Assembly: GCA_910890315.1 (NCBI GenBank)
Contig: CAJVGD010000005.1
Span: 558,001 to 622,000, forward strand
DNA: 64,000 nucleotides
Direction: 5' to 3'
Source of the DNA: Serendipita indica DSM 11827
Lineage: Eukaryota > Basidiomycota > Agaricomycetes > Sebacinales > Serendipitaceae
Position 1 is the stretch's first letter, and each line of letters starts with the position of its first letter. The translations under genes and the position numbers were made by a program. Under the pieces are notes generated by a model. The model was not told the origin of the DNA. It made no database searches and saw only the letters and a program-made list of their open reading frames with translations. Below, in pieces: positions 1-41,000 of the stretch.

Positions 1-865
1 CGATTCTACACATCCAATGTACACTACTAGTACGTCTCAAACAATACCTAGGGAAGACACAGAGGCTTACCACCTTCGTCGTCCAGTCACACAACTCTTT
101 TCCAAAGGCTGGAGTCACGATACTCCAATACCAGTAATCGAAAAGATTTACGCAGTCGTAGCTCCAGAGAACAGACACAATGCCTATCGCGCCTACAGGC
201 ACGTTCTCCTCCACGTCTCTCGACACCGTTCGCTGATCTTATTGATATAGGAACCGTATCGAGTTAAAGCGCAAGTATATACCCAAAGGAAGCAAACCCG
301 GCAACGAGCAATGGCGCTGGCATGGCACATTTTGCGGGTGTTCCATAACTACCTACACGTCCACAGGCTCCATCTGCTCCGAACGGTCTTGTTCCCTCTG
401 CGGTATCATTCGCAACTCTTACGACATCTCATGGTCCGGGCAGAAATGGGGAAGGTAACGTTTAGCCCTCATCCAGCTGTTTTCGCTTCTGACGCATCAA
501 CACAGATACGGAAGAGGTATCTACACGACATGCACATCCTCAAAAGCTGCCGACTACGCACGCACTCCACCGACCAACCCACTCAAGGCGCTCATTCTCA
601 ACGACGTCGTGATTGGCAAAGGCGCCGAGATTGCAGGCGACATGCCAAACATGACCGAACCGCCATCAGGCTACGACTCGGTATGTGAGCTCCTAATGGG
701 AGTTTCCCTCCATCTGATTATCCCCAATAGGTACTTGCCGTCCCAAGCAAGCGCCTTCATCGCGGCGGTGCACCTCGTGGGCTCAACTACGATGAGACTG
801 TCGTATACAACAACTCTGCCATTCGACCGATGTACATCATTCTGTATCTCCCACTTCCCGCATAG
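1..865 (+). CDS. PARP-like ADP-ribosyltransferase domain protein, 5' end outside the window
   Basis: This is the 3' part of a PARP-like gene; its first exons lie left of the window. The reading frame runs through three or four exons joined by short introns (about 191-250, 455-508 and 680-730). The domain carries the three hallmarks of PARP catalytic cores: a His in GNEQWRWHGT, a Tyr in GRGIYTTCTSSKAADY, and a Glu in GLNYDETVVY. Between them is a Cys-rich stretch (CSERSCSLCGIIR) shared with the four paralogues at 30-38 kb. The protein would be expected to transfer ADP-ribose from NAD, but the target is unknown. The stop codon is at 863-865, converging on NOP9 with 112 bp between. The exact boundary of the first intron is uncertain, so the reading near 190-260 is approximate. 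Confidence 0.75.
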
Positions 866-17503: not shown

Positions 17504-17663
17504 CCCAGAAGACGCGCCGAGTGGCTGCGAGGTGGCAGTGACCAACGTGTCACCCCTATTTACCCTCGCAAATAGTACAAAAGTAAAAATCGGTATATCG
17601 CCACTGGCAGCCCATACATACAGGCGAGGACATCTAATCCAAAGAAAAAAAAAGGTATAATCA

Positions 17664-19456: not shown

Positions 19457-20132
19457 CGTCGTTACAATCGTCTAGTCGTCTAATCGAGTCGTCGGGCTTG
19501 CTGGCAAGCGGGGGGCGCACGCAAGCGTTGAAGAACTAAAACAGAAAAAAGGAGGCAAAGAGGAGCACAGGCTCGACGTCTTTGCTTCTGCTCCTATAAG
19601 ATGGAGCTCTGGTTAAAAGCAGAGCTCGTCGAAAGGCGTTCGTGCGAGGTCGTAGTGGTCAAGAAGAAAACGTGGACGGGAGCAGGTTGCCCGGTCTCGG
19701 CGGGCAAAGACCTTATCTTAGATTGGAGGAATTTTGCTTTGTTCGTAATAGAGTCGCGTTATGCACCTGAACGCTTGATTCTCGCGGCGCGCAGAGGCGG
19801 TCAGCCGCAACGCGCAGAGCGCAAGGTCGCCGCACCTCTACGACGCTCCGCAGAGGATCACAGCCGTGGCGCACCAGATGATCTACACAGCTCATGGAGG
19901 ACGAAACGCATGCGCATGCAACAAAGAGCACAAGTGTTCTATGTGAATAGCGCTTTGCCCAAGGGAATGCCTAGCCTACACTACCTTTATTTCAAAGTTT
20001 GTCAGGACCGCTCCAAGCGAAACGCTGAGCAAAAGCCACGCGTGTTCACCGACTTTTAATCTCTCCCGCCCGAGAGTCTGTTTGCTGGTAGTTTGACTCT
20101 TGCATTAAACATATCATGATGTATACATCCAA
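19457..20132. other. Intergenic upstream of the MARVEL gene
   Basis: This GC-rich stretch holds a 152-codon open frame on the plus strand (19601-20059) without recognisable domain, splice context or homologue; I do not call it. The region should contain the MARVEL gene promoter. Confidence 0.5.
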
Positions 20133-21669
20133 TTAAGCTATGCGTTTCTTATCTTTCCAATCCTCTCTATCCACGTCCGAGTCGTCATTGGGTCTAGGAA
20201 GCTTTTCCAGACTGTCCATCTGCAAGAATTAGCTTCAAACGGGCAATCTTTACTAGCTACACACCTCTACATCCGTGCTGTCGCTCCTGTGTACCGGCGT
20301 GGCAACATGCACACCCAGAGGCGGAGGTGAATGTAGTTTATCCGGGTGATCCGTGATGAAGCTAACGATTCTCGTTGCCGAGGTATGTCGTCCGTGCACA
20401 GCGGCATGCCCATTCGTATTGATCGTCCCGCTGCCCCCAATGGACATACTCGCCCGCCCCGTATTGTGGTGGATATTGGTAACCGTGATACGTGCTCCCG
20501 TAGACGCAGAGGCTTCGTGCGAGCTGGCACGTTCGCTGCGCATCTCATTGCGGGTGTTGAGCGTATACATGAGTGAAATTGCATATAGCTTCGACAGGAC
20601 AATATTGAACGCCAAATGCCTGGAAAGTTTAGTCTATATGTCTGGAAAGAGAAGCAAAGACATACGTCAATTCGATTGGACGTGTCTCAAGCACGACAGC
20701 GGTGACTACAACTCCAAGTGTCGGTGGGAGAGCCGTCTGCCATGTCATGCGCACGAGACGATCAATCAATTCTGAAGTTCTACATACCATTGAGCGTCCG
20801 AGTTCATAGCTGGTAGAGTACTCACGATCGCATGTCTGGCCGTTGCTGGTAGAGATGTAGAGCAGTTGCACCAGTAATGAGCGTGTCAACAGCAATAGCA
20901 AAGATAAAATGAACGAGAGCTGCAGCAGCGATGATTAGTATACGCCAGGTGTATCGTCGAGGCCAAAACGTACACCACGCTCGAATTCGGTGATGTTCGA
21001 CACGAGGAAGGTAGACAGTCTGCAGTTGATATGTTATAACACGAGTGAGCACCAAAGTCACCAGACGTACGACCAGAATAGCGGCAACGAGTGAAAAGGC
21101 AACACCAAGCATTGTTACACCGCAAATGATTCTTCTTCTCGTGAGCATCCAATACCGATATATGAAGAAGCTCTGGACGAGACTAGCGATAATTGCCGTC
21201 TGTGATCATAAATCTCAACTGGGGCCCAACCTGTTCAAGCAAGGGGTACTGACTGTGAGCCCGGTCGAATAGTGCCGCCAATCGACAGCAATGAGTAATA
21301 CGGTGACGTCTGGGTTACAATAGTTTGCAATGACCATGTTCCAGCAGATCAAAATGTTCTGGGCCGACTTGGTGATGCAGAGAGCGTTGAGGAGTATTAC
21401 GAGCCACGTGAACCTGTTCTTACTCCCGTCGGTGTCTCTGAATCCAAAGAAATTGGCAGTTTGACTGAATAAAATCCCTAAAGTCGAGGGGTTCAGCGAC
21501 CGATGCCTGAGCAACGGAGATGTGAAACACCTTGGAGCAACATATCCGCGAATGTACCCATGATTGGAGGAGCAATCTGAACGTTTGCTTCTGTCACAAG
21601 TTGCTGCGCGGGTGGGCTGAGAATGATTGTTGACGGCTCGAAGCCGATTGTGGTAATGTTAATGGTCAT
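20133..21669 (-). CDS. DUF6534-type seven-helix membrane protein
   Basis: This gene belongs to a large basidiomycete family of seven-helix membrane proteins of unknown function. The ATG at 21667-21669 starts a short extracellular N-terminus. Successive exons then give hydrophobic helices, including YWMLTRRRIICGVTMLG, AAAALVHFIFAIAVDTLI and LPPTLGVVVTAVVL. The hallmark segment before the tail reads KLYAISLMYTLNTRNEMR, matching the family's KLYxNSLLxxLNSR. The cytosolic tail is Ser/Thr/His-rich, and a final short exon adds EKLPRPNDDSD and stops at 20133. About seven short introns are present. Ligand and role are unknown. Confidence 0.75.
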
Positions 21670-22265
21670 ATTGCCTCTTCCTGTGCCAATTCCGTGTGTA
21701 AAGGCATACAGGGGTGGAGGAGGGAAGGGAGAAGAGAAATGGATGGTGGACGTAAACTGGCCTCGACCCTTTTAATATTGACCGGCGTTCGGCCATAAAA
21801 GTCAAAAAATGAATGATACCGCTCAGGAACGCCTCATGATACAACGTATATGGGGCAACTGCATGACCGTCCCCGTGAGTGCCTCCGCTTTTCTCGGTCT
21901 TTCTGAATGCAACACCCTCTTCAGTACCGTCATTCACCTTTATCTATCGATATCCGTTGATATTACGTCTGGCCCAGACCGGTCCATAGTCGGAGACAGA
22001 ACCGGCGACTCAACGTTTTGTGTTAGAGGCGCTTGATGGACGGATGGTAACTTCGAAATGACTAATAGAACGGGTCCAGTGTTCGTTAGCCCAGGGGACA
22101 ACCACCGTCAATCGCGGTCAAGAGATGATGGTCATCCATGCATCGCAGCTCTTGCCTCACGAGGGAATCTACCGTCTGCAAGACGAGTCACCTAGATATA
22201 CACTTCATCTATTAGCGAATATACAGATCATCACGCTCTTCAATATCATGCCTTCATCAAGATCA
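21670..22265. other. Intergenic between DUF6534 gene and NADAR gene 1
   Basis: No gene is supported. Only short unrelated open frames are seen, and the stretch should hold the DUF6534 gene promoter. Confidence 0.5.
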
Positions 22266-23287
22266 TTAAAACTGGAGGCCTTTCTTGCTGCGAAAAAAGT
22301 CTCGTAGCCGCATCAGAGTCTTACCGAGCTGGTTCTCTCCTTTGCCATTCGCACCGCAACCCCAGAAGGCGTCCACTGGCGAGTCCTGACAAAGTCAGCC
22401 TTATTTCAGTCAATAAGAGTAGAACCCCGTACCTCTATAAGCTCTGCATCCCCCGTGTTCATCAACTCGCGTTTGAGACTGGAGTGTTGGGAGAATTTGG
22501 CCTTGAGGATATTATACATCTGTCACCTGTTAGCCTATATCCAGTGGGAGGGCGAGAGCATACAAGGTCTATCTTGACCTTTGCCCAGTCTTCTCGAACC
22601 TCGGGCTGGAACCGACGAGCTTCATTGAACGCGTCTCGTGGATTCTTGGAGAACGTGCGGATATGTTCCGCAAGCCCCGGTCGATGAACGATAAACTAAG
22701 CTCAATGTCAGTCTGCATCTTTCAGGATTTGGCAAGATGAACCTTGTACGCTTGGAAGACATGCTCGGACGTTGGATACGTCCTTCCCTCGAACACAACC
22801 TACAACGCCTATAAATGACCGTTCCGAAACAATTGCAAAAGTAGAAAACGGACCGAATGGGGAAAAAGTTTGTAAACCCATAGAACGGCTTATCCTTGTC
22901 GTAGAACAAAATCTTGGTCTTCTTGGAAGGAGTCGAATAAGGAGTAGGCGAACCTCGACCTCCACCGTGTGCATTATGATCACGCGGTTGACGGGCAAGA
23001 TACGCTGGGTAGGGTACGCTGTGCGAAGCCGACGTTGCTCCCATCGAGTTTGCGCGCTTTCTCTATTCGCACCGACATAAATGGTACCGAAAACAAATAT
23101 TATATGTATAACAAGTAGCATGGAATCAGTCTACGAGACGGGTCATCGAGGACGGGCGTACAGGCACGACTGGCGGTTGGGGCTGGTGATGGATGATCTC
23201 AAGGTTCTTTGCATTGATTACAATGGGCGGCGACAATGGAATCTGCTGTGTAGTTCTCTGCAGTCGCGTCGATTTATGCGAGGACAT
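22266..23287 (-). CDS. NADAR-domain protein 1 (YbiA-like, ADP-ribose-linked N-glycosidase fold)
   Basis: NADAR domains hydrolyse N-glycosidic bonds in ADP-ribose-related compounds; some members remove ADP-ribose from guanine in DNA. The N-terminal ~90 aa, from MSSHKSTRL at 23287, are Pro/Gln-rich and probably disordered. The domain then begins: FYDKDKPFYGFTNFFP, VVFEGRTYPTSEHVFQAYK, RPGLAEHIRTFSKNPRDAF, RRFQPEVREDW, and finally DSPVDAFWGCGANGKGENQLG. These are the family's hallmark blocks in the usual order. About five introns; those before FIVHRPG and before DSPVDAF fall where NADAR gene 2 also has introns, so the pair arose by tandem duplication. An alternative upstream start at 23368 is possible. 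The protein ends shortly after the domain. Confidence 0.85.
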
Positions 23288-23572
23288 TGTGGTCAGAGTT
23301 GAAGTTGCGTTTGGGTCCCGCTTGGGGCGTCTATTTTCCAGCCGCGCCGCAGGATCCAACTTCAACAACCTTGATCAGTACACTGCTTACTTATTGAGTA
23401 GCAAGGAAACAGCAGCTCTACTGACAGCAAGGCGGGAAGATCAGACTTTGGGTATCCGGGGTACCATCCAGCACATTCAGTAACGCGCCGCACATCAAGC
23501 GGCGGCTGTATAAGAGTCGACGAAACATCCAGAATATCTCTACAAACGAAAAGAGAAGCGGGCCAAGGGAAT

Positions 23573-24936
23573 TTAGTATGGCATCGTCGGCATCATCGCT
23601 TGTCCGACTTCGGCGTGCATAGCCTCTGCATGTCTATTTGCTTGCTGAGCTGCTGTATCCTCCTGCTGTAAAGCGGCTCTTAATCGCATCAACGCGAGAC
23701 CGAGTTGGTTCTCGCCGTTACCATCCCTGCCCACTCCCCAAAATGGATCGTAGGGCGAATCCTATCCGATATCAGGCGTCTCTTCTCCGACCACAGGACT
23801 CAAAAATACCTCGATGAGCTTTAAAGTACCTGTATTGACAAGCATCTGCCGTAGTCGTGGATTCTGTGTAAACTTTTCGCGCAGAATCTCGTCCATCTTC
23901 TGAATTTTGACCGAATGCCAATCCGGTCTCCATTCTGGTTGGAATCTTCGTGCTTCTTCAAATGCGTCACGTGGACGATCCGAAAATGTCCTGATATGCT
24001 CTGCCAATCCTGGGCGGTTTACAAGGAACTGAAAGCATCTTGAATCAGTATCCATACTACTCGTTCCAGGAGATAAACACAGACCTTTTGAGCCTGGAAA
24101 GCGTGCTCAGAAGTCGGGTATTCTCTCCCAAGGTAGACCACCTTGTCGGGAGAGAAATTGGTAAACTCGTAATACGGGTCCTCTCGGTTGTAGAACTTGA
24201 GCTCGGAGACCTGTTGCTGCTGAACCTCTTGATGAACCATTGGTGCGTTGAAACCAGCGACGTTGAGCGATCCCGAGCGGCTAGGGGGATGCATGATCGG
24301 CTGTTGCATTTGTTGATTCTGATAGTACCCAGTATTCACCGGTGCAGGAGACTGAGTTTGCGGAACGGGTCGTGGAGGCAAACCATAGGCTCTGCCACCC
24401 ATGCCAACTTGGTTCATTGTCGGTTGCTGAGGGCGATTCTGGGTCATCATTGCATGAATTGGCGTGCTAGAAGCCCCAGTCGATTGTTGAATTTGCATCT
24501 GATGCTGCTGATATTGTTGATTCTGAAGCTGACCCAAAGTCGGCGGCTGCGATTGGCTGTTGGGAAGTGGTGGTGATGGTCTGCCAAACTGTCCGACGCG
24601 TGTTTGGACTAGCCCAGTTGGCACAAGTCCATTCGTACTTCCGTTGTCACTTGCGCTTCCGGGCATGAGACTCGACGGATGCGAACCGGACGATGCGCCC
24701 GTTGAATACGGATTCGGGAGATAAGGACCCATGTTCAACGGTCCAGCAGATGGTACACTGGACGGAGACGGTTGGACATATTGCAAGCCATGCTGGGCCG
24801 CAGCACCTGCCCCGATACCAGCGAGATTGGCGCCTGGGCCATTACTTGAAGGTAGCGGGTCCATGAACGGATCATTTTGCGGTGTAGGCATAGGATTTAC
24901 AGGCGAATACGACTGCATCGTAGTGGTTTCAGTCAT
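23573..24936 (-). CDS. NADAR-domain protein 2 with long Pro/Gln-rich N-terminus
   Basis: Paralogue of the gene at 22266-23287. The N-terminal ~270 aa, starting MTETTTMQSYSP, are rich in Pro, Gln, Asn, Gly and Ser (for example NQQYQQHQMQIQQ) and look like a low-complexity, condensate-prone region. The NADAR core follows: FYNREDPYYEFTNFSP, VVYLGREYPTSEHAFQAQK, RPGLAEHIRTFSDRPRDAF, RRFQPEWRPDW, LRQMLVNTGTLKLIE, and DSPYDPFWGVGRDGNGENQLG. A short tail ends in PTMPY at 23573. Introns sit before the FLVNRPG and DSPYDPF blocks, matching paralogue 1. The start could instead be 25002. Likely a nuclear or cytosolic hydrolase of ADP-ribose conjugates; the substrate is not known. Confidence 0.85.
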
Positions 24937-25584
24937 GATGGACGGAGACGGCGAGGAAAGAGAAAGGGACCAAGGCGCTGGATGACAAGTCCCACTCTTC
25001 ACCCGTACCTGCCAGCCAATTCAGCACGCTTCAGGTTCTCAAAAGAGGTACGCAATATACTCATTGCAAGTTTCCCTCAATACATGATCTACACCCAGCA
25101 GCTCGGCAAAGCGATCATACGGTAAAGAGGCGGATATACACAACTCGTCTAAACAAGGGGACATCTATAGCAAGTGAATAGCACCTACGTGAAGAGCATA
25201 TGGGTAATATAACCTCTCGGACTACCGATTCGTACGGCGACTCCCATGAATTTCGACAATAATCGACCGCCGGGGAGTGCTCGACGGTCCAACCGATGTT
25301 TACCTTTGACGGCTCTGATGGGAATTTCAATGGTCTACGGGTGCATCTTTGCATCCACAGAGTCGACGCTCGTGAAAAGGGAAACTAGGCGCGAGGAAAT
25401 GTGTCAAATATTCGTGGGCAACAAACAACGCATGTCTACTCTAAATTAGCGTCGCCTATCTTCCTGATTAGGATTTTAGATTAGGACTGCACTAATTTCA
25501 AGTAAGCCATACCCTGCTGTGAGCAAAGACGACCTAAAGGCAAAGGAATCAGGGAGAGTGTATCAATCAAGTTCAAGGCGAAAT
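24937..25584. other. Intergenic between NADAR gene 2 and the NLR-kinase gene
   Basis: I see no gene. The stretch probably holds the NADAR gene 2 promoter and the 3' end of the NLR-kinase gene. Confidence 0.5.
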
Positions 25585-28500
25585 CTAACCTGTCAAATCT
25601 CCGATGAGGGCCTCCGCTTCTTTGATCCTGGGACGGTCTTCAATGTTGGGCCAGCTCCAGCACGCTGTTAAAAACTCCCAGAATACTTCTTGTATATCGG
25701 CATCCTGAATAGTACTAGACTCGATCAAGCCAGGTTTGTGACCATCTTTGATCAATTGAAGGAGGTGAGTTGCATTTTGAGCTTGCGCATATGGCTCTCT
25801 ATCTTCCATAAGCTGCCATTCCATGAGCCATGTGTCAGTTCCAAGTCCTCATGTTTGGATCAACATACGTAAAGACCAACGCAGCCCAAGGCATAGATGT
25901 CGCCCTCAAATGTAGCACGAGGATTTGCGTTATCAGTTGTGATAAGTAGTTCCTGTGCTGTGTAGCGTGGAGTTGCAATGTATGGTGAAGTAGTGGTCAT
26001 TCCAGAGTCCCCACACCATTCCATTAAGCGTATGAGGCCAAAGTCACATAGCATGCCTGTTGGACCATCATCTACTAGTATGTTTTGCTAAGTAACATTA
26101 TTAAATACTTCTATGCATCGAAACGAGGTACTTACAGGCTTCAGGTCTCCATGAACAATGCCCAGATGGTGAAGATAGCAGAGTCCATTTACTATGTTGT
26201 GCATCTGTTGAAATTTAGCGCATATTGGGATAGAACCATTAGACACCTGACCAACTTCATTCGGATATCTGGTTCACAGTAGCCCATGCTAAGAAATTGA
26301 GCCGCATTACCAAGTGGGCACCACTGAAATGAGTTCTTTTTAGAGAGATAATCTCAGAATGTGGAGCCTACCTTGGAGATCATGGCTGGGAATAGACCAA
26401 ATCTTTGAGAATAGCCACAGAGTGGCAAGATATTCGGGTGTTTAAGGGCCGCCCAGACATTGATTTCTCTGAGAACTCGCTAATAAAGACGTTTAATTAC
26501 CTGTGGAGACAGAAATTACCCTTTCATCATACCCGTTTGAGTGCTGCTTGCCATTTTTCATTGCCCTTTGCTGGAAATCTTGTCACCTTGACGGCCACCT
26601 GGAGGTAATAAGTGTAAGAACTGTTCGGACAGTAATACCTACATTTGAGCCCCCAAAATGACCCTTATAGACAGTTGCAAAGCCGCCATGTGCAGCATCC
26701 CAAATATCTGTAACGTGAACCTGGTCGCTCAAGTCTTTGGGTCGATTTAAATCCATCAGGGCTGCCAAGCTCTTGTTTGGGTACAAATCGACATTCTCAG
26801 TGTTGGGTAAGCTATCATAGGAACCAGGTGGCTGATGTGTTGAGGCAGTTCGAACAAGGTGTAGCTGGGTCGGTCGCTGCGTCTGATCGGCATCTTGTTG
26901 TATGGCAGGTAGAGATGATTCCAATGCAACACCCGCGTTACTGATTGCGACCTGATTTGTCTTGGTTCGCTGTTCCGTATGGATGAAGGATTCAGACGGT
27001 ACGTCTGTATATACTTTGCAAATATGCGTCTGTTGTTGTCCTCGTTTATCTGGGTCTTCCAGGGCCAGTGACCGTGAGTAACTTGCCAATGTGACTGTTT
27101 GATCAAGATTTTGGGCCTCTTCAGATATCATCTGCCCATCTGAAACTTCATTGCTCGGCATCTCCGTCACCGACTGAGCCACGCTAGGTTAGTATCAATT
27201 CCGTACAAAAGTTATAGAGGATCACCTTGGGCATATTTGAGTGTTTAGACTTGTCTTTGGTGACGTGTACTGATTTCTCATGCCGTTCTGAATCCCTTTT
27301 AGCACTAGATTTTGGCCATTTGAAGAAAGAGATGGCGCCCGAAGATTTCTTTGTGCCTTCAGTGGGAGGACGTTTGGTCGTAGGGGGCGTCGGTTTAGGA
27401 TATTCAAATGACAAGAATGGGACGGAGAAGAACTCCCTTCGGTGAAACCGTGACTTTGCAGGTTGCGGTTTGTTACCCTTTGCCATTATAGCACGCACAA
27501 TATTGGTGGCATATGCATAGTCTGGATCGCCTTCCGTAAGGTCCTGTTGAATTGCTTCGGCGGACGAGAGGTCTATCTGGAAAAGAGCAAGAGCAAGTCT
27601 GGCTCGCCAAGTATAAGAGTTGTTTGGCCCATAGAGCCTTTCACTAGCATTGCATAAGGCACGGGCCGCTTGTTCTGCCTCAGCCAATCTGCCGAGTTCA
27701 TAGGACGTCCACATCAGATTTTTCGTGGCAAGGTGAGTCTCAGGATCTAAGTCCCCAAGCATTGTTGTTCGATAACGCAGAACCTGGACCTGAAGCTCCG
27801 CCGCATGGGAGAGCAGCTCTTGGATTTCCCTCTCTCCGTTTGCCAGTCCTTGGCCCCTATTTGCACTCCTGCGAGACATGGCAAGGTTATAGTAGGCCAC
27901 ACCGAGATTGTTAGCGGCGAGAATGGTTTCTACATGGTCTTTTCCGAGCACCTTCGCCCGGCGAATATAGACGTCACGTCTGAGGGCCACGGCCTCATCT
28001 CTTTGACCCAAAGCTTCATATACATTTGCAAGCTTTGCACTTGTCCCAATGGCGAGGGGGTCATCTTCGCTCTGACTCCTTCTCATTACTTCTAGGGCTT
28101 GTTGGTACAGATCTCTGGCTCTTTCATTTTCGCCAAGCCTGGCACAGGTCTCCGCCAGCGACACCTCTGCTTCTACTGTACGCGGATCTAAGGGCCCAAA
28201 GTATCGACGCATCATGTCTCTGATAGTCTCTCTATGCGCCTTGGCATCTGCGTAGTTTTGGTTTGCTTGCTCAGCAGTCGCTAGCCATGCGAGGGCTACC
28301 GGAATGTCCTCATGGTACGGCCCACACTTTTGCTGCAAGTCGTTGACGACTTGTTCAAAGAGCAACAGAGACCTTTCGTAATCGCCAGTACGGTAGAGAA
28401 CTCTGGCAAAGGTGGCCTTGTCGTTGGTGTGGAATTCACCGAAGGAAGATTCGAACTCTAGTAGTATCTGTAGAGCCAGATACTGGTCCATGGGATCTTC

Positions 28501-29735
28501 GTCCCAAGGCGAGCAGCCAAGGAGTCGAATAAACGCCGTCCGATATACCTCCGCGGTCGATTCGTCCATCCGGTTCTGTGCCCAGGATTTGACCTCTTCG
28601 TCCATAGAGACTAGAACCAGTCCCCCAGATTTGACCTCGGAGGTGAACCTAAATCGTTTCAAGGTCTCGAAGTCCTTGAGGATCCCCCCTTCGTCAAACC
28701 TGCCTCCAGCATAAAATATTTGTTTGAGAAGAGATACTGCGTCGTCTATCTCCCTTTCACTTCGCTGTATCGCTTGGTACATCTCCCGGTCGAAGCCAGT
28801 TCGGGCTCCGTGACTGACGAGTTGAAGAAATGGGAAACCCCCAGGGAAGAAGGAAGAGAGGAGGAGGAGGAGCTTCTGAGAACGACTAGAAATGGCTCTG
28901 TATGAGACGCTAAGAGCTGCGTACGTCGGAGCGTGATAAAAACCAGAACGAGCACTCTCTGCTATGAGCTCTGGTTGGAGGTGTGACAGGTAAGCATCTG
29001 GGGGTGTATTCGACGCATTTATGTATGCTGTTGCGCAAGTAAGCGCTGCGGGATGGTGCCCAAGCGCCTCTCCTATCCTCTTCAGAGTATCTTTGGATGC
29101 AGACGTGGAAGCCAGCTGGAGTTCCAGCAACTCCTCAGCTTCAGACGGCGTCATCTCTCCGAGATACACTGTAGCATGTGGTGTGACAGCAAGGTACTGT
29201 TGTGCTTGTGTCGTGATGAGGACAAGGAAATGGTCCGAAGTTGAAATATAAGGGGTAAGGTCGACAGAGGGCACAAGATTGTTGAATACGATCAAGCATG
29301 GCCCTTTCTCCGGTGCTTGAGAGCGTTCGAGATAGCGGAGGGCTTCCTGAGGATCTGCGATTCCGGATGGTTGTATATATTTCTTGAACCCGTGCGCAAC
29401 AAGTTCATCTGAGGAACTATCAATGAAGTAGGCATCTACAAATCTGCAAAGCCTCAACGTGTGAAGATAGCAACGATATCACCGACTGACTTTTGGCGGT
29501 TCCGCTCAACGAAATACAGAATCAGCTGTGTCTTTCCGCTTCCAGGAGGACCTGTGATGATAATGATATTCCTTCCAGTTGAGCGACTTGCTTCATTCGG
29601 GAAGGCATATTCTTCGAGAAGTCGCTCGGCCTCGACACGCGGGGTGTAAGTAGGCGTGATTAAAGGAAATCCCGGACCAAGAGGCCTAAGAGTATCTGGC
29701 CAGGTTGTCTTTCCTCTGAGGCTTCTCCTCGACAT
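25585..29735 (-). CDS. NLR-like NB-ARC/TPR protein with C-terminal protein kinase domain
   Basis: Roughly 1,200 aa. The P-loop domain shows Walker A TGPPGSGKTQLIL, a FVDAYFIDSSS strand, Walker B CLIVFNN, a LVLITT sensor strand, and an ALGHHPAAL segment at the GLPL position. A long block of TPR repeats follows (for example GDYERSLLLFEQVVNDL, YNLAMSRR, YELGRLAEAEQAARAL). A Ser/Thr/Lys-rich linker leads across an intron into a protein kinase: Gly-rich loop GGFATVYKG, VAVK, LREINVW, HGDLKPQN, DFGLIR, and GDIYALGCVG. The catalytic residues are present, so the kinase looks active. The linking intron has a perfect TACTAAC branch site and preserves the frame, which argues for one gene. The start is uncertain: the frame continues up to 29960. 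Fungal NLR-like STAND proteins often mediate non-self recognition; that role is inferred. Confidence 0.8.
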
Positions 29736-29960
29736 TGTGTGTCGTGCAATTGGTTGCTGTGGTGGTCCGCAAGTCGCAGGGGCTTCATGGGATAAGGGCG
29801 CAATCCTCCCAAAATGCAGGCGGCTTGCTAACCAGCAGAAAGAGCAGACCACTTCCATGTGGATCCTGCGCGGCAGCCATGCACAATCAGCGGAAATCAA
29901 ACCGGCTATCTGAGATGGTCTGCAGTGTTTTGGTGGTTTACGGTTTCTGCATACTCTCAT

Positions 29961-30201
29961 TCAAGATCCCTGCTTGGGAAGAAGCATACATGGGGTACAG
30001 TTGCCATACGCAGTGACGGTCAGGCGCAAGAACGAGATGAGGCAAGCCACCAGTAACAAAAGGCTAGAATAGCAATAGAAATCTAGATACCAATCAAAAA
30101 CCCATACAGAAAGATTCACAACGGAAAGGCAAGACAGACCAAACACTAGGCTACGAGGAGAATGAATGGACATGCATGGCAAGACAGAGTAGAGCGAATT
30201 G
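29961..30201. other. Intergenic between the NLR-kinase gene and PARP-like gene A
   Basis: No gene is seen. Together with 29736-29960 it forms the upstream region of the NLR-kinase gene and the 3' flank of PARP-like gene A. Confidence 0.5.
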
Positions 30202-32021
30202 CTAATACACAATGAGATACGCAGGTCGAATTGCATCGTTGTCGTATACGACCAGCTCGTCGTAATTGAGCGCTCCCGCGGCGTCTGGCTCGCCCAGGAC
30301 CTATCGAATTAGAACATAAGCCAACGTACACCTGCAAAGCGTCCTCAAAACGCACCGAATGATACCCCGCAGGAGGGCCAGTGAGCTGCGTGCTATTGTT
30401 CGTGAGCTTGTATCCATTGCCGACAATGACTTTGCTGAGCAGCATGGCTTTATATTGCGACGTCTTCTTGTTACTCGTATACGAGTCGCTTTTCGACGAT
30501 GTCGCCGACGTGTAAAGGCTAGCTTTCGTTAGCCACTTTGCCCTGCCCGCTCAAAGAGGTACGTACCCGCAACCAAATCGGCCCCATCCGGTCTTCCCTT
30601 TGTAGAATTTGAGGTCGAAAGACGTCCGAATAATACCGCACAGTCCGCACGTCGAGTCCGAGCAGAGCTGAGTATTCTGTCGACCAGTTAGACCGTCTGT
30701 CACTCTATTTGATCACGATAAAAACTCACTCCTGGGTCACCGAGTAAACAAGCACGGGTAGTTCCATGGAATCTTCGGTTTTCGTTGCCTGGCGTCCGCC
30801 CTTTGGCAGCAAAGCCACCTTCCTGCTCTACTCGATCTCGATAGGCGTTGTACGAGGCATTTTGAGTAGCGTTCATCAGGATCAGATAGATGAACTTTGC
30901 CGTCTTTGGCGCCATGTTCGTATGCGTCCACTTGGTATCAAACTGATTGGCGACTGTGCTCTCGTCTCAGCAACCCGGATCGAGTATATGACAGGAGGCG
31001 TACCATCTTTGAATTTTGGATGATCTGAGGGTATCTCGATGATCCCTGGAGCCATTGTTTCTGATGTTTGTACACATGCTGGCGAGCAGAAGAGGCTGTT
31101 CCGTGTTTGATCATATGGCCGTATCTTGCAGATGACACAGGCTCTTGTGCCTAGACCTGCTGCCCCGACCGCGGCGCCTAGAAGGTTCAGAAAGGCGGAT
31201 ACATTGGGAGTCAGTGTGGGCTGCTGGAGGTGTGGATTGTTGCTGAGCAGACGATGAGCGTCCACAGCATATTCGCGGACGATCAGAGCTCACTCTCGAC
31301 ATCTTTTACCACAGAACAAGGAATGGACTCCATTTGGATCCAACCAAGCGGGTTTTTGGCAGCCAGGAACGACGCATATCGCTATAGCACACCGAATTTA
31401 GTCTTGGTCCATCGCGTTGAAAGAAAGACGCACGTCCATATGTTTGTGGTGGGGCCGGGGCTGGGGCCGGGGCTGGGGGAGGTTGCTGATAAACTGGAGC
31501 GGGAGAATAGTAGGGCGGCGGTGGATAATACTGCGGCGGGTAAGGATTCTGTGGATATCCATAGTTACTCATGACTGGTGGTGGTGGATTGTATCCATTC
31601 GGGGGATATGGACCCCCCTGTTGGGGAAATTGTCCCGTCGGTTGTGGATATACGCCGCCAGGAGCGAGATATGGATTCGGTGCCTGTGGTAGTGGATTGT
31701 AGGGTTGTTGCTGAGGTGGATATTGACCAGTCGGTGATGGATATTGAGCGGGCGGGGGTGCATATGGTACTGGATTCGGCGGATACCCTGCAGGCGGCGG
31801 TGGTTGCGCGACATTAACAGGCGCAACTGGAGGCATTCCTTTTGCTGCATTCCTGCACATATTACCGCAATAGTCGAATAGCTGCCCCGTGGGGGCATCA
31901 AACCATCGCGGCTTCTGCCCACAAAACTAGAAGGGCAATGAACCGAGACCAGTCAGCCCTTGATGATTCAAACCCAGAGAGAGCAATGAAGGCTCACCAT
32001 ACATAGTGGTGCCGCGGCCAT
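30202..32021 (-). CDS. PARP-like gene A: three zinc-finger motifs, Pro/Tyr-rich linker, PARP catalytic domain
   Basis: The start MAAAPLCM at 32021 is followed by an intron that splits the first finger (LCMFCGQKPRW...YCGNMC). A linker of about 130 aa rich in Pro, Tyr, Gln and Gly follows (for example PYAPPPAQYPSPTGQYPP). Then come a second finger (CVVPGCQKPAW...FCGKRC) and a third (CVICKIRPYD...FCSPAC). The catalytic part has ENRRFHGTTRACLLGDPG, CSDSTCGLCGIIRTSFD, GLYTSATSSKSDSY and LNYDELVVYDNDAIRP. These give His, Tyr and Glu at the PARP triad positions, so NAD-dependent ADP-ribosylation is expected. The stop is at 30202. Intron positions match genes B and C. It is on the same strand as the NLR-kinase gene. 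Targets are unknown. Confidence 0.85.
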
Positions 32022-32389
32022 CGTGTTTATGGATGGTCGAGGGAGGAGAGGAGAACGGTGAGCGTCTATTCGACCTTGCTGAGAGATTTCTGCGGTACGC
32101 GGGGTCCGCTCGGAACTGCCAGCTGTGTCAGAAAGACAACCAAACTATACCCTCGGTGGGTCATCCAGCCCAGCTTGAATGTGCTGGTTGAGAGCTGCCA
32201 ATTGCCAAACTTTGGCTCCCACACTAAACATGACGAGCGACGACAATTCTATTTCCTAAATATTTATTTCTACACTTTTCATCGCGTCGCCGTCCACTGT
32301 CAGAATTTGTGGCACAATGCGGTCAAGTTCAAGTTGGGTGAACCACAGGCATTTTCAAGGAGGCGGCTAGAGAAACAACATGAGAACGT
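32022..32389. other. Intergenic between PARP-like genes A and B
   Basis: No gene is seen; the stretch should hold the promoter of gene A. Confidence 0.5.
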
Positions 32390-33891
32390 TCAATAAACGA
32401 TGAGGTACGCTGGTCGAATGGCGTCGTTGTCGTAAACAACCAGTTCGTCATAGTTCAGAGAACCGGCAGCATCCGGTTCGCCCAATACCTGGAAAGATAT
32501 CAGCCGGGATTCAGACATAGGCGAGATACTTCACCGAGTGATAGCCGCTCGGCGGAGCAGTACGCGTCGTATCATCAGTCTTTAGCTTGTAGCCATTCCC
32601 GACGACAACCTTGTTGAGAAGCATGGCCTTGTACTGTGAAGGCACCTTATTCGTGGTGTAAGAATCGCTTTTGGACGATGTCGCCGACGTGTAAAGGCTA
32701 GCTTTCGTTTAGCTACTTTGCCCCGCACGCTCAGAGGGAAACATACCCGCAGCCAAATCGACCCCATCCTGTCTTCCCTTTATAGAATTTGAGGTCAAAC
32801 GAGGTGCGGATAATACCACACAGTCCGCAGGTCGTAATCGAGCAAAGCTGGGTGTTCTGCCGATCGTTTAGTCCTCGACTCGTTCGCCCTTGCTAACGGA
32901 AACACTCACTCCTGGATCACCAAGTAAGCAAGCACGGGTGGTGCCATGAAATCTTCTATTCTCGTTGCCTGGCGTTCGACCCCTGGCGATAAAGTTGCCC
33001 TCTCTCTCGACACGGTCCCGGTAGGCATTGTAGGATGCGTTCTGGGCCTCACTGCAGAGGATGATATAGATAAACCTGGCGGGTCTAGCTGGGTTGTTCG
33101 TATGAAGCCACTTGGAGTTGAACTGGTGGGCGACTGGCAGCCACATGAGCACGCGCGAGTAATATGAACGTCATAGAGAGTGTGCCTACCTTCGCTGAAT
33201 TTGGGATGGTCAGAAGGAATTTCGACAATCCCGGGTGACATGGCCTCTCCCCGCTTGACACACGCGATCCCACAGAATAGACTTTTGCGTGCTTGATCGT
33301 AGGGTTGTGTTCTGCAGATTACACATGCTCTTGTTCCAAGATTCCAATTGTTCACGGGAGGCGCCGTCGAATTATCTGGTCGCTGGAGATGCGGATTGTT
33401 GCTGGGGACAGTACGTGAGCGCAATGAATACCCAAGGTCAAGTGCACTCACTCTCGACATGTTATTCCACAAAAGCTGCTATACCCTCCTTGGGGATTTT
33501 GCCAGGCTCGCCTATTACAGCCCGGAACGACGCAGATTGCTGTTTAATTTCGCGTCGGTACTCTATACCTATACTAGGTTCCATTCAACACTCACGACCA
33601 GCAAACGCAGGTAAGGGAGGAGGAGGCGTGTACGATGCGGGTGCGAGTGAGGTCGTGCTTTTGTTTCGAAATAGCGACCCAAACATTGACTTTTTCTTCG
33701 GGGTAGAGAGTGTCGACGAAGAAGAGCCCCCTTGAGCTGCATTCTTGCAGTGGTTTCCACAATAGCTCAGATACCGCGTTCCATCAAAGTATCGCGGTCG
33801 CCTGTTACAGTGCTATCGATTTCGCTCAGACTCGACGCGGCGCCAGTTCTTGATTAGTAGCACTTACTGCACATAGCGGAGCTGTCGCCAT
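32390..33891 (-). CDS. PARP-like gene B: three zinc-finger motifs plus PARP catalytic domain
   Basis: Start MATAPLCA at 33891; the first intron again splits finger 1 (CAHCNRRPRY...YCGNHC). The linker is short and basic, unlike the Pro/Tyr-rich one of gene A. Finger 2 (CVVPGCNRRAW...FCGITC) and finger 3 (CVICRTQPYD...FCGIAC) follow. The catalytic domain carries ENRRFHGTTRACLLGDPG near 32940 (His), a TSATSSKSDSY block (Tyr) in the exon at 32580-32700, and a LNYDELVVYDNDAIRP block (Glu) before the stop at 32390. It is the closest relative of gene A by eye across the fingers and the catalytic core. Splice sites look intact. Confidence 0.83.
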
Positions 33892-34841
33892 TGCGGAGAG
33901 GAACAAAAAGAGTGTTACCGGCAACTGAGCGTCTATCGCCCTGAACGGTGGATCTCACTACAGCCGTGGCGTTTGCTGGTCGACAGGATACCCGATCGGG
34001 GTCTGCTCCGTTTGCTCGACCCGTGGTTTCCTCATTGGCAGCAGTCAGATTTCAGGGTATTCAAGGACGCTCATTGAACACTGGATGCTTTCCAGGACTC
34101 ATGCCGAACGCAATCTGGAGTGGCTACCACCGCAATGACAAATACTCAGAGATTCAAATAAAGGGAATAATGAATGGGTACTCTGTCCAGGGATCAGGGT
34201 TTGGCGTGATGTACATAAACCGGTGAGTGCCGTTCGATTTATTTATCATCATAGCCCGGAAGCATCTGCACCTCCAGAACCTCAAGCACATTAAACAGAT
34301 ATGATCACCCGAGGGAATAATAAATCTCATCTTGAACTCTTTGTTCATTGTGTATTGATTGCCCTCAATATAGCCTCGGTTCAGCGCCCTTAGTGGTTCA
34401 AATTCTTCCAATCTATTCACCTGTTCTCTCCGTCAACGCATGACCTCCGTTCTGGCTGCCTCTTACCTTGTGTCAACTCGCGCGCCTGCTCTTCCCAATT
34501 GTCGTCGTCCAAGAGAGACATTTGAACGATATTTGGTCGTTGTCAGAGCTGATAACCGCGTATACGACCAGAGTGGTTGGATATAAAGCCGGGGGGAAAG
34601 TTTGAGAGTTCAGTTGATTCGCGCAAAAACTTTACCCCATTCCGCTAATGCAAATTTCAGGGCCTGGGTTTTGATTAACGAATCTTCCGCAAGACGTCTC
34701 CGCAAATGACCAAATACCCAGATATAACGCGCTCTCTTTTTGATGGATATAAGAGCAAAGATTCAGAGTCAAAGATCCAATGAATCAATACTTTCTAGGG
34801 AGCAAGTATTCAGCGCATTTGCTTAAGTACATCAGGGGCTC
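33892..34841. other. Gap between PARP-like genes B and C with an orphan coding-like segment
   Basis: On the minus strand at 34154-34550 there is a coding-like stretch: a start MSLLDDDNWEEQAREL near 34520, a short GT..AG gap, then EEFEPLRALNRGYIEGNQY and MRFIIPSG. The phases of the two parts do not join cleanly, so I cannot support a gene model. A 92-codon frame on the plus strand (33948-34226) has no recognisable features. The rest appears non-coding. Confidence 0.3.
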
Positions 34842-36141
34842 TCAGTATATGATGAGATACGCGGGTCGGATCGCATTATTGTCATAGACAACGAGTTCAT
34901 CATAGTTAAGAGTTCCAGAAGCGTCTGGTTCTCCCAGAACCTGTGAACAGATTAGATCGACCGAGCGGGTGGATCACAGGGCATACCGAGTGGAATCCTA
35001 CGGGAGGGGCAACAAGATTTGGACTATTCCTCGTCATCTTGAATCCCCTTCCTACCACTACCTTACTCAATATCATGGCTTTATAATCTGAAAGTTGATT
35101 GTTCGCTGTGTATTGATCGCTCTTGGACGACGTCGAGGACGTGTATATTCTCAACAAGCAGCGTTAGTTTTGCATCCGTATGACCGTATGACCGCATGAA
35201 GCATACCCTCTTCCAAAACGGCCTCATTTGGTCCGACTCTTGTAAAAGCCAAGGTCAAAAGAGTTACGAATGATGCCACACAGTGCGCAGGTTTGACTCG
35301 CACAAAGCCGCGTCTTCTATCGGGCAGGTTAAATCATGCCCATTTTAGTTTCTGGTGAATTCTACGGTACCCCGGGATCTCCAAGCAAACAATCTCGACG
35401 AGTTCCGTGAAACCTGCGATTCTCATTGCCCGCTGTACGATTTTGGGCTCTGAAACAGCCCATATTTTCGACCTGTAGTCGATATGTGTTGTAAGTCGCC
35501 TTTGATTGCGCAGTCTGTGCGATGAGATAGATGCGTTTCACAGGTCGGAATGGCGCATTGGTGTGTAGCCATTTAGAGCGAAATTGATTCTCAACTATGA
35601 CTGTTAGCATAATTTCCTTAATAAAAACGTAGCGCATCGCACCGTCTTGGTATTTGGGGTGATTCGGTGGAATATTGATGATAGCAGGGGCCAACGTCTC
35701 CGCGGCTTTCACGCAGCCGAGTGTACAGAAGAGACTTTTACGGATCTGATCAGCGGGTCGTTGCCCACAGATGACGCATAGTGGCAGTCCAGTATTCTGT
35801 TGGGTGAAGTTAGCAGGCCATGCAATCTGAGGGGCGATACGGTTAGGTTGACGCTGGACAGGCGCTACAGCGCCGAAGCCAGGTCTATAACCCTTGGATC
35901 CAACGCTTGATCTTGAAGAACTACTCCAAGGAGCAAGATTAGGTATTCCAGCTTGTTTGCCCTGAGCAGCCATCTGGGGACTGTGGTACGTGTGCAAGGG
36001 TGCGACTGAGTTTCCAGCGCAAGGGTGAATACCAAATGCTAAAGAGAACTCAGCATCAGACTGATGCGAGTCATCTGAGTAGATACAAAAATTACTCACC
36101 GCGTCGAGAGAGCTCCCAGAGCTGACCCACAGATGATGCAA
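34842..36141 (-). CDS. PARP-like gene C: one clear zinc finger plus PARP catalytic domain
   Basis: The catalytic core is intact: ENRRFHGTRRDCLLGDPG, IYTSSTSSKSDQY and LNYDELVVYDNNAIRP give the His-Tyr-Glu triad; the stop is at 34842. Upstream is one finger (CVICGQRPADQ...FCTLGC), preceded by about 80 aa of Ser/Gln/Pro-rich sequence. The N-terminus is uncertain. The first ATG in the best frame is at 36141, but its exon also contains a CIICG string in another frame, and downstream a PCAGN string sits where genes A and B have YCGN. This suggests that finger 1 has decayed or that the start lies elsewhere. Introns in the catalytic part match those of A and B. Confidence 0.75.
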
Positions 36142-36887
36142 GTATCAAGTGAGTGTGCGTCTTTACTCTGGTATATATCAATATGGATCATATGTCACGT
36201 TCGGGAACAATAACGGGGCCAGTCCGCGGGTTTGCTGGTAATGACTGCCTGTCGCTTCTGAAATGTGTTGAAAGCGCATGAATTGATAGACAGCTATTGG
36301 GCTATGGCAAGGTTCAGGGATAGGCCGTACTCCGAGAGGACAAGTCGAGGCACAGGGGGCTGGGCCACGATAAGCGTCTGGGCAATATTATCGAGCATTC
36401 TGTTGTGAATGTTGTATATAGAAGATTTCTTTCGACTGCAACATGACCTGAAAACGACGCGACGTAAATCCATGAGTGAGGAGTGCATTTACACCTAGCC
36501 TTCGATGTCCGGTATGCGCGACGACTCTGGACCGAGTGTCAGAAGTATGGTAGTAGCAGTATTTATCCATGCCTAGACCTCGAGAGTAAGGTGCTTTGCC
36601 CTAATAGCCGTATGCTATTAGGCATTCTTCAACTCGCAGATATACCTTGGTCGCACGTAGGTAGTCTCGCATACGATCCAGAATAGTACTATGTGGTTCC
36701 GAATTGTGGGCGAATTGCTGGCTGATCTGGCTGATAAAATTCAGACGTCGAATGCTGGTTGACAATGCCAGTGCCTTTGGCGCCGACTTGGACTTGTTCT
36801 CCGTCTTCAACCCTGCTCTCGGATTTCCAACAATGTCGATGCTTAGCAACTGGTGGAACGGCGGAGCAATAATTCAACGGGAATGAC
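36142..36887. other. Gap between divergent PARP-like genes C and D
   Basis: This stretch should hold both promoters. A minus-strand open frame of 82 codons (36601-36849) has even codon use but no recognisable domain and no splice support, so it is not called. Confidence 0.4.
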
Positions 36888-37908
36888 CTTTGCGAGGTAG
36901 ACCCTCTGCCACTTCTCGACTGTTGATCTATCCCGCTGAGCTGTTTCCGTCGACTCTAGGTCTGCAACGCCCGCCCAAAGTACCGCGATAGCTTTCGTGT
37001 ACATCCATATTGCGGCAAATCCTGCGCTGCAAAGGCACCCAACTGCTTCTATCCAGGATGCGGCGCAAAAGGCACGCGCGAGTATGGCGGCTACTGCTCA
37101 CAGAAACACCAAAAGGCGACGGTCTACTGCGCGAGTTGCAAATCTACACCAGCAAATCCAGGACATGCACTTTGTTCCAATTGCCAGATGATGCAGGACA
37201 AGAACAGAAACAGGCTGGTCGAACTCCCACCAAACGACACTGGATTCCAAGAAGGTGCGTTCATATTGTATGTCTATACTATATATATGCTGATAAGTGT
37301 GTGATTACAGCACAGCAAATGCTCATTAGTGGCTGGCCAAGAGGTGTTCGTCCACCACAAGTCGGACGCGTCTTCAAAATAATGCTCGGAGAAAACAGTC
37401 AACTCCTTCGCTCGCAATACAAGAATTCGGGTGACAGTTCTCGGCTCCCTATATGGTATTCTGGTCAGAACATCTGCGAGCTCGGCGGTCCGACCAAGCC
37501 CGTCGAATTTTGCCAGTACAAGTCCTGCGGTATCTGCATTCCACTCAAATCTGGCTTCAGTGCGTTTGAGTTTGGGCAAAAGTACCAAACTGGCCTGTAA
37601 GTCCCATCTCTCTTGCTCTGAATCACGTATCTAAGTCAGAATTAGCCACGGGAACGGAATCTACACAACCAGAGAACCCGCGGTTGCGGACAAGCACGCA
37701 ATATCATCCACGGGCACGCCGTATCGCGTCGTCATTCTCGCTAGTCTTACAATACCATCAAATGCGAGCAGAGAATTTGTACGTTTTCCCGTCAGACCTC
37801 TCTACAAGGTTACTAAGCCAGTACTAGATACTTGGGAACAACAACGATGTGTTCTGCAAGAATCCACTTGCCATCACCCCAGACTACCTCATCGCATACA
37901 ATTACTGA
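36888..37908 (+). CDS. PARP-like gene D: zinc fingers plus diverged, probably inactive PARP-like domain
   Basis: Four exons join with good splice sites. The first finger is LCE|VCNARPKY...YCGKSC, with an intron at the same place as in genes A and B. Finger 2 (CFYPGCGAKG...YCSQKH) and finger 3 (CASCKSTPAN...LCSNCQ) follow. The catalytic region reads IWYSGQNICELG where relatives have RFHGTTRACLLG, then CQYKSCGICIPL, NGIYTTREPAVADKHA and GNNNDVFCKN. The triad His is thus replaced and the Glu position reads Asp, so NAD-dependent transfer is unlikely. I cannot find an in-frame ATG: a stop codon precedes LCE. The gene may use an unseen upstream exon, or be decaying. It is on the opposite strand to genes A-C. 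Confidence 0.6.
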
Positions 37909-38059
37909 CCGTAGCCAGGTACACAGTTATGTTTGTCGAATAGACTCCTCTACTTGGGTCTTTGTATCGTCATAGCCTTTCAATGACTTTATATCTTCCA
38001 CGCGATTTGTGAATAGAAATGCCGTTGCTCGCGATATACTGGACAAAATTTGAATAGAT

Positions 38060-41000
38060 TTACTGACTCGCTGCCTGTTTGGCTGCCTTCTCCAGTTCGC
38101 TAAAGGTCCCGCTCTTGAGACACATGTCTCTGAACAATCCCCCCTCCTTCCGAATAAGATTCCACGGTGTGTCGAATTCAACAATATTCCCTTTATCCAA
38201 GATAAGCTGGGTGGCTGGTCAGCGTAAAGGCAACAGCGTCGGACGAGCGCATACCAGACGGTCATAGTCAATTACGGTTCGTATACGGTGAGCGATGGTG
38301 ATCAGACACGAATTCTTAAACTCTTCGCGCACTGCAGCTTGAATCTTTGCGTCCGTTTTAAAGTCGATGCTACCGGTTCATGAGGGCATACTCGTTATCA
38401 TGTCAACCTACATACCTGGATGTGGCTTCGTCGAGGATGACAATGCTGCTTTGACGCAAGAGAGCCCTGATAACGGTAAGCATTCGTGGATGATCAATGT
38501 AGAAGTCTGACCTTGCCATCGACATCAACTGTCGCTGTCCCTGACTAAATTGGCCCTCGGGCAGAGACGTCAGTGTCCAAATCGACCTTGGAGAGCTTAT
38601 CGTCCTGGGGTGCTCGTCCCGGTACAGAGGGAGTCTCCTCTGCTTCTTGAGGAGGGGATACGTCCACAACCGACGACGGACGAGTCGAACGACGCGAGGC
38701 ATATGTTGCCTCTGAGATAAGTCCGACACGATACAATGCATCTAGGCACTCCTCATCTGTATGTTCGGAGAATGGATCCAGGTTCTCTCTATAAAATGCA
38801 TTAGCTACCCGTAGTCAATTCTAGCGTATGACGAACCGGATGGTGCCGGAGAAGAGGACGCTATCTTGAGGAATAAAGGTCTGACCGTCATTAGCAAATC
38901 TCCATCAACCTTTATGGTCACTTACGACTCGCTTTCTTAGGTCGTGTAATCCAATGTTGCCGATATCAATACCGTCGATGGTAATGTTCCCCTCTGTCGG
39001 CTCGACGAAGCGCAGGAGAGACATGGCGAGAGTGGACTTTCCACTGCCTAAAAATGATTAGTTGGAGTACAGTCCACCAGCTAGGCCACCCGTTCGTCCG
39101 AGAAGTCCAATCTTCTCTCTTGCTTTACATCAAAGCTGACGCCGTGCAGAACAGCGGGTAAATCAGGTGCATATTTGATGACCAAGTTATTGACGTTCAC
39201 TATTGCCTCCGAACTCGAGGTGATCGATGGCCAATATGCTGGTGGTCGACTATTCTCGATGACCGCTGGTGGCTCTTGAGGCAATTCCATGTATTCGACG
39301 ACGCGTTCAACGGAGCTAATGCGCTGTTAGCCAGGAGAACACACAAAGTTCCAACATACTTGAGATCTAGCTCTAGTTGAGTCACCATTCTGCATGTCCA
39401 ATAGACACTTGGAAGCAGGTTAGCTTGAGTGGCTTGCATTGATTCGTAAATAGCCATACCTGCTAGTAAAGTTCATAGCACTGGTGATAGTAAGACCAGC
39501 TAGCCAGTCGGATATGAAGCCTCCAAGAACAAGTAAGGTGGTAAGGAGCACCGAGGTTGCGCCAAGCAGATCAAAGTTGAGCAATAACCAGCGATTGAGC
39601 ATCCAAAAGTTGTAAAAGTATTTGGTCGTGTCATCCACCCGCGTGTGCAGATTTTCGAGGAATCGTCGCTCCGCAGAGAATGCTCGCACAGTCACGATGC
39701 CTTCCAAAGTCTCACCAAAAGCTGCGAAGATTGGTGAGCGACTTGTGCTATCCAGCCGACGCAGGTCGCGTCCTGTGTCCATATAGCTTTGGCTAAGCTT
39801 GTAGTACTGAAAGCGACGAGTCAGAGCATAGCTTCATACCATAAAGTACGTACGCAGAATCCAATGATCGTACCAGGAACTACAAAACCCGGGAAGATGA
39901 TGACAATAGTCAAGACGGCAGCAATGAAGCCCGCAATCGAGGTCAAGGTAGAGCGCAGAGAATACGCCAATGAAGAGTCAATGGTCTCAATATCCTTTGA
40001 GAATCGATTGAGAATGCGGCCTATACCGGGGTCAGTGCGAAGAGACTCAAGAGACCAACACTCGCCTGTAGGAGTGGTGTCGAACCAACGCATGGTGGCC
40101 CTCATGACCATCTTGAGCAAGTCCGCAAACATTTGCTTGGAGGCCTTGTATGCTCCAATCGACAAAATGATTTGTCCTAGAATGTTGACAAAAACGACAC
40201 CAATTCCAATACAGGCAAATACGCCAACATAGAACAGTGGATGCTCATTCGCTGAAGGGAAGCGGTCGGTCGGGAATGGATTCTCCGCACTGATGGCGAC
40301 AGTAGACGTGAATGGGTTGAAAGTGTTATTTGGGTATCGATATGAAGTTGTAATTTGGACGTCGTGGTATGCAAACTCTTGAGCCATTGTCCTGTGGAAT
40401 GTCGAGAAGTGTACGGCTGGTGACGATTCGGTTGCACTCCCGGCCTACACTCTGATTAGTATCGATATATGAATGGATAGAAACTATGACCTCTCCCCAT
40501 ATCTGCATCCAAAGCTGATAGGAACATGAGAAAACTGTTGTTCAAGCTGGAATGAACCACACCTTTTCCGTAACGCCTCCTAATTGGGACAAGCCAAGAA
40601 TCATAAGTAGGAAAACCCACGTAAGATATCCCCTATCGATGGTGAGATTTTTAAAGAAGATCTGTATCTACTCACGTTGCTACAAGATATGCCTTGTATA
40701 CCTTCCATTTGACACTACCACGGGCACGAGCCTCAGCCTCGACAAGTTTCTTCGCCTGCTTCTTCTTCGAAGGTGCTGCCTTATTCGAATCACCATCGAC
40801 TGCTTCTTGTGTGTCCTCGGTAGCAGCTACCGCTAATTCTTCAGCGGTCACGACCTCGGGCTCGGCATTTGCCTCGGCTTCGTGAACAAAAATCTCGAGA
40901 CGCCCGTCTGATTGCAAGTCTGTGACAGTTCCTTGAATATCGATCCGACCATCGAGCATGCGAACAAAGTAATGAGCAGATGAAAGTACGAGTTCGACAT

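Follow-up and report, generated by a model that had tools for sequence, protein, structure and literature searches.

The window analyzed here, 64,000 bases of the Serendipita indica DSM 11827 genome (contig CAJVGD010000005.1, here C5, positions 558,001 to 622,000), carries a contiguous block of two NADAR genes, one gene for an NLR-like receptor with a C-terminal kinase (NLRK), and four PARP-like genes. We propose, with moderate confidence, that this block is part of a cluster in which PARP-like and kinase genes are expanding locally; that on one of two assembled copies of the region, the window and contig C8, a kinase was joined to an NB-ARC-like/TPR receptor to form NLRK; and that the NADAR genes are independent neighbors. 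PARP-like genes related to those of the block continue upstream and are interleaved with kinases of the NLRK family, and the receptor half of NLRK is absent from C8.

The genome analyzed comprises 24.7 Mb in 55 contigs; genes were modeled from GT/AG splice sites and comparison of paralogs, and domains were called by Pfam. The splice models recovered every gene that a sequence-only reading had named between 22,266 and 37,908 (window positions), ends that coincide with the model ends of NADAR2 and PARP_D, and Pfam identified NADAR, PARP, kinase, and TPR domains among them. The claimed gene set is therefore real. That no other gene lies between them likewise holds at the level applied, as four gap open reading frames gave no Pfam match at 0.01. 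The features are as follows.

22266..23044, minus strand: NADAR2, 196 residues, YbiA-type, five exons; splice model
23573..24936, minus strand: NADAR1, 419 residues, low-complexity N-terminal half and YbiA-type NADAR domain; splice model
24301..30057, no strand: divergent island between C5 and C8, from megablast and substitution rates
25585..29735, minus strand: NLRK, 1251 residues, nine exons; NB-ARC-like nucleotide-binding domain, TPR repeats, linker, and C-terminal protein kinase
30202..32021, minus strand: PARP_A, 479 residues; cysteine-rich zinc-finger-like repeats and a PARP catalytic domain with the H-Y-E triad; splice model
32390..33891, minus strand: PARP_B, 378 residues; architecture as PARP_A, with H-Y-E; open in the window
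34842..~35973, minus strand: PARP_C, of the PARP_A-C family; 5' end uncertain; stops prematurely in the window, open in C8
~36960..37908, plus strand: PARP_D, divergent PARP-like, lacking the triad H and E; no start codon found by eye
143..865, plus strand: PARP_W, catalytic part with H-Y-E kept; 5' part beyond the window; the model uses one GC-AG intron

A local cluster of PARP-like and kinase genes

Searches with PARP_A returned at least 50 exon matches across the genome, and the Pfam PARP model at least 19. Collapsed by hand, these give 12 PARP-like genes (C13:513k, C17:67k, C17:378k, C5:548k, C5:552.6k, C5:558.2k, PARP_A, PARP_B, PARP_C, PARP_D, C5:1070k, and C5:1657k), a count that includes PARP_D by profile and leaves out the C8 copies, a PARP of canonical appearance at C2:860k, and C6:1647k, which matches weakly (E 0.02). 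Seven of the 12 fall within 48 kb of C5 (548-596 kb). The cluster is accordingly larger than the single 16-kb block first described: the genes of the block are contiguous, but the array takes in three additional PARP-like genes some 22-32 kb upstream, including one at the left window edge. Free kinases at C5:549.8k and C5:555.3k stand between these upstream genes. Compared with the NLRK kinase, they reach 51-56% identity in the best-matching exons and 45-47% in a whole query-anchored comparison, an approximate figure, since introns were read through in part. With two NLRK-family kinases in such positions, the interleaving of PARP-like and kinase genes recurs in the region, whereas NADAR and NLR do not.

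The catalytic letters are well kept in the family. H, Y, and E stand at aligned places in nine of the 12 genes (PARP_C counted by its C8 copy); the exceptions are C13:513k, with K for E, C5:1070k, in which H was not recovered, and PARP_D. Yet C13:513k (L034) is about 90% identical to PARP_A in the part compared. PF00644 scores above its cut-off, together with H-Y-E, in PARP_A (E 2.2e-13), PARP_B (2.3e-13), PARP_W (5.6e-13), and the C8 copy of PARP_C (2e-14). PARP_D has no Pfam PARP match of its own, so that the label of four PARP-like genes stands by Pfam for three (PARP_C by its C8 copy); profile comparison relates the fourth to PARP_A-C (hhalign 96.7%, E 3.5e-10 against a profile of A, B, C, and W). 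Silent divergence between paralogs is saturated. Besides PARP, no further Pfam domain exceeds its cut-off in PARP_A or PARP_B, and "zinc-finger-like" is a by-eye reading of the C-x2-C...C-x3-C spacing in PARP_A. Among solved structures, the closest are tankyrase-1 (phmmer 1.7e-7, PARP_A) and PARP4 (profile 5.1e-12). In the phmmer alignment to tankyrase, Y and E are in register, and H, outside the aligned part, is read from the motif FHGT. DarT does not occur among the best 60 of 72 and best 60 of 68 structure matches. No relative of PARP_A was confirmed in viral and prokaryotic contig collections (3 and 31 pattern matches), although these scans reach close relatives only, because one protein and six peptide patterns were used. 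The available sections of PMC4245714, according to which yeasts lack PARPs, contain no description of this PARP-like family.

Between C5 and C8, PARP_A, and PARP_A-C taken together, show fewer replacement than silent differences. PARP_A has nine silent and two replacement differences (pN/pS 0.07, p 8.8e-5), and PARP_A, PARP_B, and PARP_C pooled have 15 and four (pN/pS 0.084, p 6.1e-7); taken alone, PARP_B gives p 0.044 and PARP_C p 0.043. NADAR2 is not significant between copies (p 0.13), and PARP_D has one replacement and no silent change. In the window copy, the PARP_C model is interrupted by an in-frame stop at codon 216, and in C8 small deletions affect the PARP_B exons at three places, so that each copy of the block, as assembled, includes at least one interrupted gene. 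Sequencing error may lie behind these interruptions, above all where single bases differ in runs.

The receptor and the second copy

NLRK matches Pkinase (1.6e-34) and TPR_12 (2.2e-23) and carries the motifs GPPGSGKT, VAVK, HGDLKPQN, and DFG. Its one-gene model depends on an in-frame intron predicted from sequence at 27174-27225 (GT...AG, with TACTAAC), which joins the TPR and kinase parts. The "NB-ARC" label given to this gene is supported indirectly: PF00931 matches several paralogs found with NLRK (e.g., C1:1755k, C31:9.4k, and C12:825k) but not NLRK itself at E 0.1. A NLR/STAND architecture is nevertheless present in its P-loop GPPGSGKT, AAA/ATPase matches below cut-off, and TPR_12 above cut-off. 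A solved-structure search with the NOD region returned nothing below E 0.04. The NLR family is large, with 74 matches among the 72 of 291 candidates scored; within that sample, no copy of the NB-ARC-like/TPR part exceeds 81% identity apart from NLRK itself. The nearest paralogs are C5:1171k (62% identical) and C5:1629k (58-81%). Since neither has a kinase in the 2.8-2.9 kb fetched beyond its TPR end (best E 0.72), the fusion of NLR and kinase looks specific to this locus.

The second copy of the region, C8, is a 40,012-base contig (40,000 bases compared) that is colinear with window positions 15.3-49.3 kb at 97.7-99.0% identity (megablast) apart from one gap. Substitution rates between C5 and C8 are 0.61% over 15,276-24,300, 13.7% over 24,301-25,015, 0.69% over 30,058-37,990, and 2.33% over 37,991-44,200, and megablast aligned nothing from C8 to 25,016-30,057. 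The divergent island contains, in the window, the N-terminal half of NADAR1 and the entire NLRK. Sensitive blastn recovers 68% DNA identity over about 1.5 kb of the NLRK kinase part, and no match to the NB-ARC-like/TPR part was found in C8. This contradicts the idea of the NLR sensor as a fixed part of the locus. In its place, the C8 island holds a kinase-like gene with a NLRK-like linker and a kinase about 61% identical to that of NLRK, kinase identities on C8 being approximate, as the alignments run partly through introns.

A second kinase-like gene of the C8 island (L012, C8 ~12.1-13.5 kb) is about 83% identical to C5:555k; it has an in-frame stop in the translated alignment and is possibly a pseudogene. 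Window 37991-44478, which includes pieces of an ABC transporter, is present twice in tandem on C8.

From the alignments, C8 is probably the allele of the region carried by the other nucleus. S. indica was concluded to be, most likely, heterokaryotic, with nuclei of two distinct genotypes and 2.6 single-nucleotide polymorphisms per kb (PMC3192844). Contigs totaling 1.87 Mb probably represent highly polymorphic regions in that report (PMC3192844), so that the mere presence of a divergent region is not unusual in this fungus. The tested flank has two near-full copies in the genome, C5 and C8, plus one short 71% match, and the stretch tested beyond C8 (window 50500-53000) is single copy, with one short 86% match and no second near-full one.

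Both NADAR genes belong to the NADAR superfamily (NADAR1 8.7e-35, NADAR2 1.2e-36; 120.8 and 126.8 bits against a curated cut-off of 35.1). They exceed the cut-off of the riboflavin-intermediate N-glycosidase model TIGR02464 (NCBIfam; 111 bits for NADAR2 and 106.7 for NADAR1 versus 73.7) and reach 56.4 and 74.7 bits on the anti-phage NADAR model NF053876, with a cut-off of 240. Solved-structure matches favor YbiA (2b3w; 1.8e-26 and 2.9e-26) over 8bau (4.6e-6 and 2.4e-10). Aligned to both structures, the catalytic E/K/E is kept in NADAR1 (SEHAFQAQK...LIED) and NADAR2 (SEHVFQAYK...LIED). We take 8bau, listed simply as "NADAR domain-containing protein," to be the structure of the study that describes E43 and K50, numbered two higher. 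The catalytic residues are a last-strand glutamate and the equivalents of E43 and K50 (PMC11543638). The two proteins look like active YbiA-type enzymes. Published NADAR substrates are riboflavin intermediates, or guanine-ADP-ribose in DNA and RNA (PMC11543638, PMC11125620, PMC11833690).

Between the window and C8, NADAR1 has 98 substitutions (pN/pS 0.47) and two in-frame insertions in C8; its amino-acid substitutions are confined to residues 6-157, and the NADAR domain has none. Exon 1 of NADAR2 (window 22840-22880) differs in length by one base, and by our own reading the copies therefore seem to use different donor sites.

Origin of the cluster and competing explanations

In the scenario we favor, PARP-like genes would duplicate locally, interleaved with related protein kinases, and in one copy the kinase would have been joined to a NB-ARC-like/TPR receptor, giving rise to NLRK. 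NLRK may then act as a non-self or immune sensor, with its kinase as effector or integrated decoy; the PARP-like proteins may modify proteins or nucleic acids; and the NADAR pair could be YbiA-type N-glycosidases that chance to adjoin the cluster. Across the genome, 12 NADAR exon matches correspond to five genes at four loci, plus the C8 copies, and one of the four loci has PARP-like neighbors. The other three have no detected PARP-like gene within 50 kb, the nearest pair (C5:1737k and C5:1658k) being about 79 kb apart. The NADARs are probably independent neighbors of the PARP-like/kinase cluster.

Several points weigh against this scenario. C8 could be a duplicated segment instead of an allele, and NLR and kinase could be two separate genes. 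The NLRK kinase keeps its catalytic motifs, as suits a working effector more than an inactive decoy. One of six C8 open reading frame pieces matches Pkinase, below cut-off, and the C8 kinases rest on tblastn similarity. Furthermore, NADAR and PARP-like genes adjoin in both copies, which linked function would also predict, and chance placement is unlikely: when four NADAR and seven PARP-like loci are placed at random, the probability of a pair is 0.016 at up to 5.3 kb and 0.026 at up to 10 kb, figures that disregard gene density and are post hoc for a site picked for its adjacency.

An alternative that we consider unlikely, though worth weighing, is that three unrelated expanding families (PARP-like, kinase, and NLR) and a NADAR pair lie together by chance, with no functional link and with NLR and kinase as two genes. 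The size of the NLR family and the separation of the other NADAR loci from PARP-like genes would be expected under such a history; the in-frame intron that joins TPR and kinase, and the recurrence of same-family kinases between PARP-like genes, would not.

Less probable again is a writer-eraser module, in which the PARP-like proteins would ADP-ribosylate guanine or other N-linked targets (in self or invader nucleic acid), the NADARs would remove the mark, and NLRK would be an optional, fast-changing sensor, as a eukaryotic analogue of DarT1-NADAR or YarT-YbiA. The sequence-only reading had suggested such a writer, eraser, and sensor module and likened it to bacterial pairs of an ADP-ribosyltransferase (ART) and NADAR. 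ADP-ribose chemistry is possible because H-Y-E is kept in PARP_A, PARP_B, and PARP_C (C8 copy), as it is in PARP_W, because E/K/E, the residues named in PMC11543638, is kept in both NADARs, and because YarT-YbiA is a published ART-YbiA pair (PMC11125620). The adjacency of NADAR and PARP-like genes also holds in both copies. Against the module, the pairing does not recur at any of the three other NADAR loci, the PARP-like proteins most resemble tankyrase and PARP4 among solved structures, with no DarT in the best 60 of 72 and of 68 matches, and the NADARs are of the TIGR02464 type and fall below the anti-phage cut-off. YbiA-like members are, moreover, placed near the flavin-biosynthetic NADARs of plants and fungi (PMC11543638). 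A defense module of NADAR, PARP-like, and NLR genes is possible but unproven, since just one of the assembled copies has the receptor and the other does not show it.

More doubtful still is the idea that two nuclei carry different receptors at one ADP-ribose cluster, where PARP-like writers and NADAR erasers would be constant and the sensor (NLR-kinase versus stand-alone kinases) would be maintained in divergent forms by balancing selection; the region would then be a basidiomycete locus for non-self recognition or antiviral defense, with ADP-ribose as its signal. Finally, it is highly improbable that the island is an assembly artefact or that C8 is a paralogous segment from elsewhere in the genome, as a separate contig with a tandem repeat and small indels in coding sequence might suggest, given colinear 98-99% flanks on both sides, the heterokaryotic state concluded for S. 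indica (PMC3192844), and the lack of a second near-full copy of window 50500-53000 beyond C8.

Elsewhere in the window, 20 further open reading frames were run through Pfam; nine match at 0.001, all to unrelated families (helicase, PX-associated, PPR, NOP9-PUF, ABC, and RWD). The DELD family of small secreted proteins is represented by two RSIDELD-stop sites at window 5732-5755 and 7255-7278 (minus strand), and a signal-peptide-like start (by eye), MRYSFVAAILSTAALLVSAAPIEL, begins at 6315. The genome has 18 RSIDELD-stop sites, compared with none in a reversed control, a count that points to Serendipita (Piriformospora) indica or a near relative; 25 proteins with a C-terminal RSIDELD motif are reported from that species, although certain proteins of other fungi carry it too (PMC3192844).

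Relation to known systems

With candidate writers and erasers on either side of a receptor that is not the same in the two copies of one mycelium, the locus would offer a concrete site to test ADP-ribose signaling and non-self recognition in basidiomycetes. Among described systems, YarT-YbiA and DarT1-NADAR similarly place an H-Y-E ART beside a NADAR with the YbiA-family glutamate (PMC11125620, PMC11543638). Those pairs are bacterial operons, whereas the genes described here are separate eukaryotic genes, known from sequence alone, that encode PARP-type ARTs and have an NLR-kinase between them. The PARP-like proteins share triad letters with the catalytic domain of tankyrase and PARP4, but PARP_A and PARP_B instead feature cysteine-rich N-terminal repeats. 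The window NADARs score as YbiA-type riboflavin-intermediate N-glycosidases, from which NADAR1 differs by its long low-complexity N-terminus; in the literature consulted, NADARs of fungi figure solely as kin of enzymes for flavin biosynthesis (PMC11543638). Nine Sordariales NLRs with a C-terminal kinase have been described as putative integrated decoys (PMC12258605), and NLRK shares with them a full NLR architecture that ends in a protein kinase. The Sordariales proteins are T-NACHT NLRs with a CHK2-like kinase (PMC12258605), whereas NLRK combines an NB-ARC-like NOD and TPRs with a kinase of the local family, and its receptor half is present on one of two contigs.

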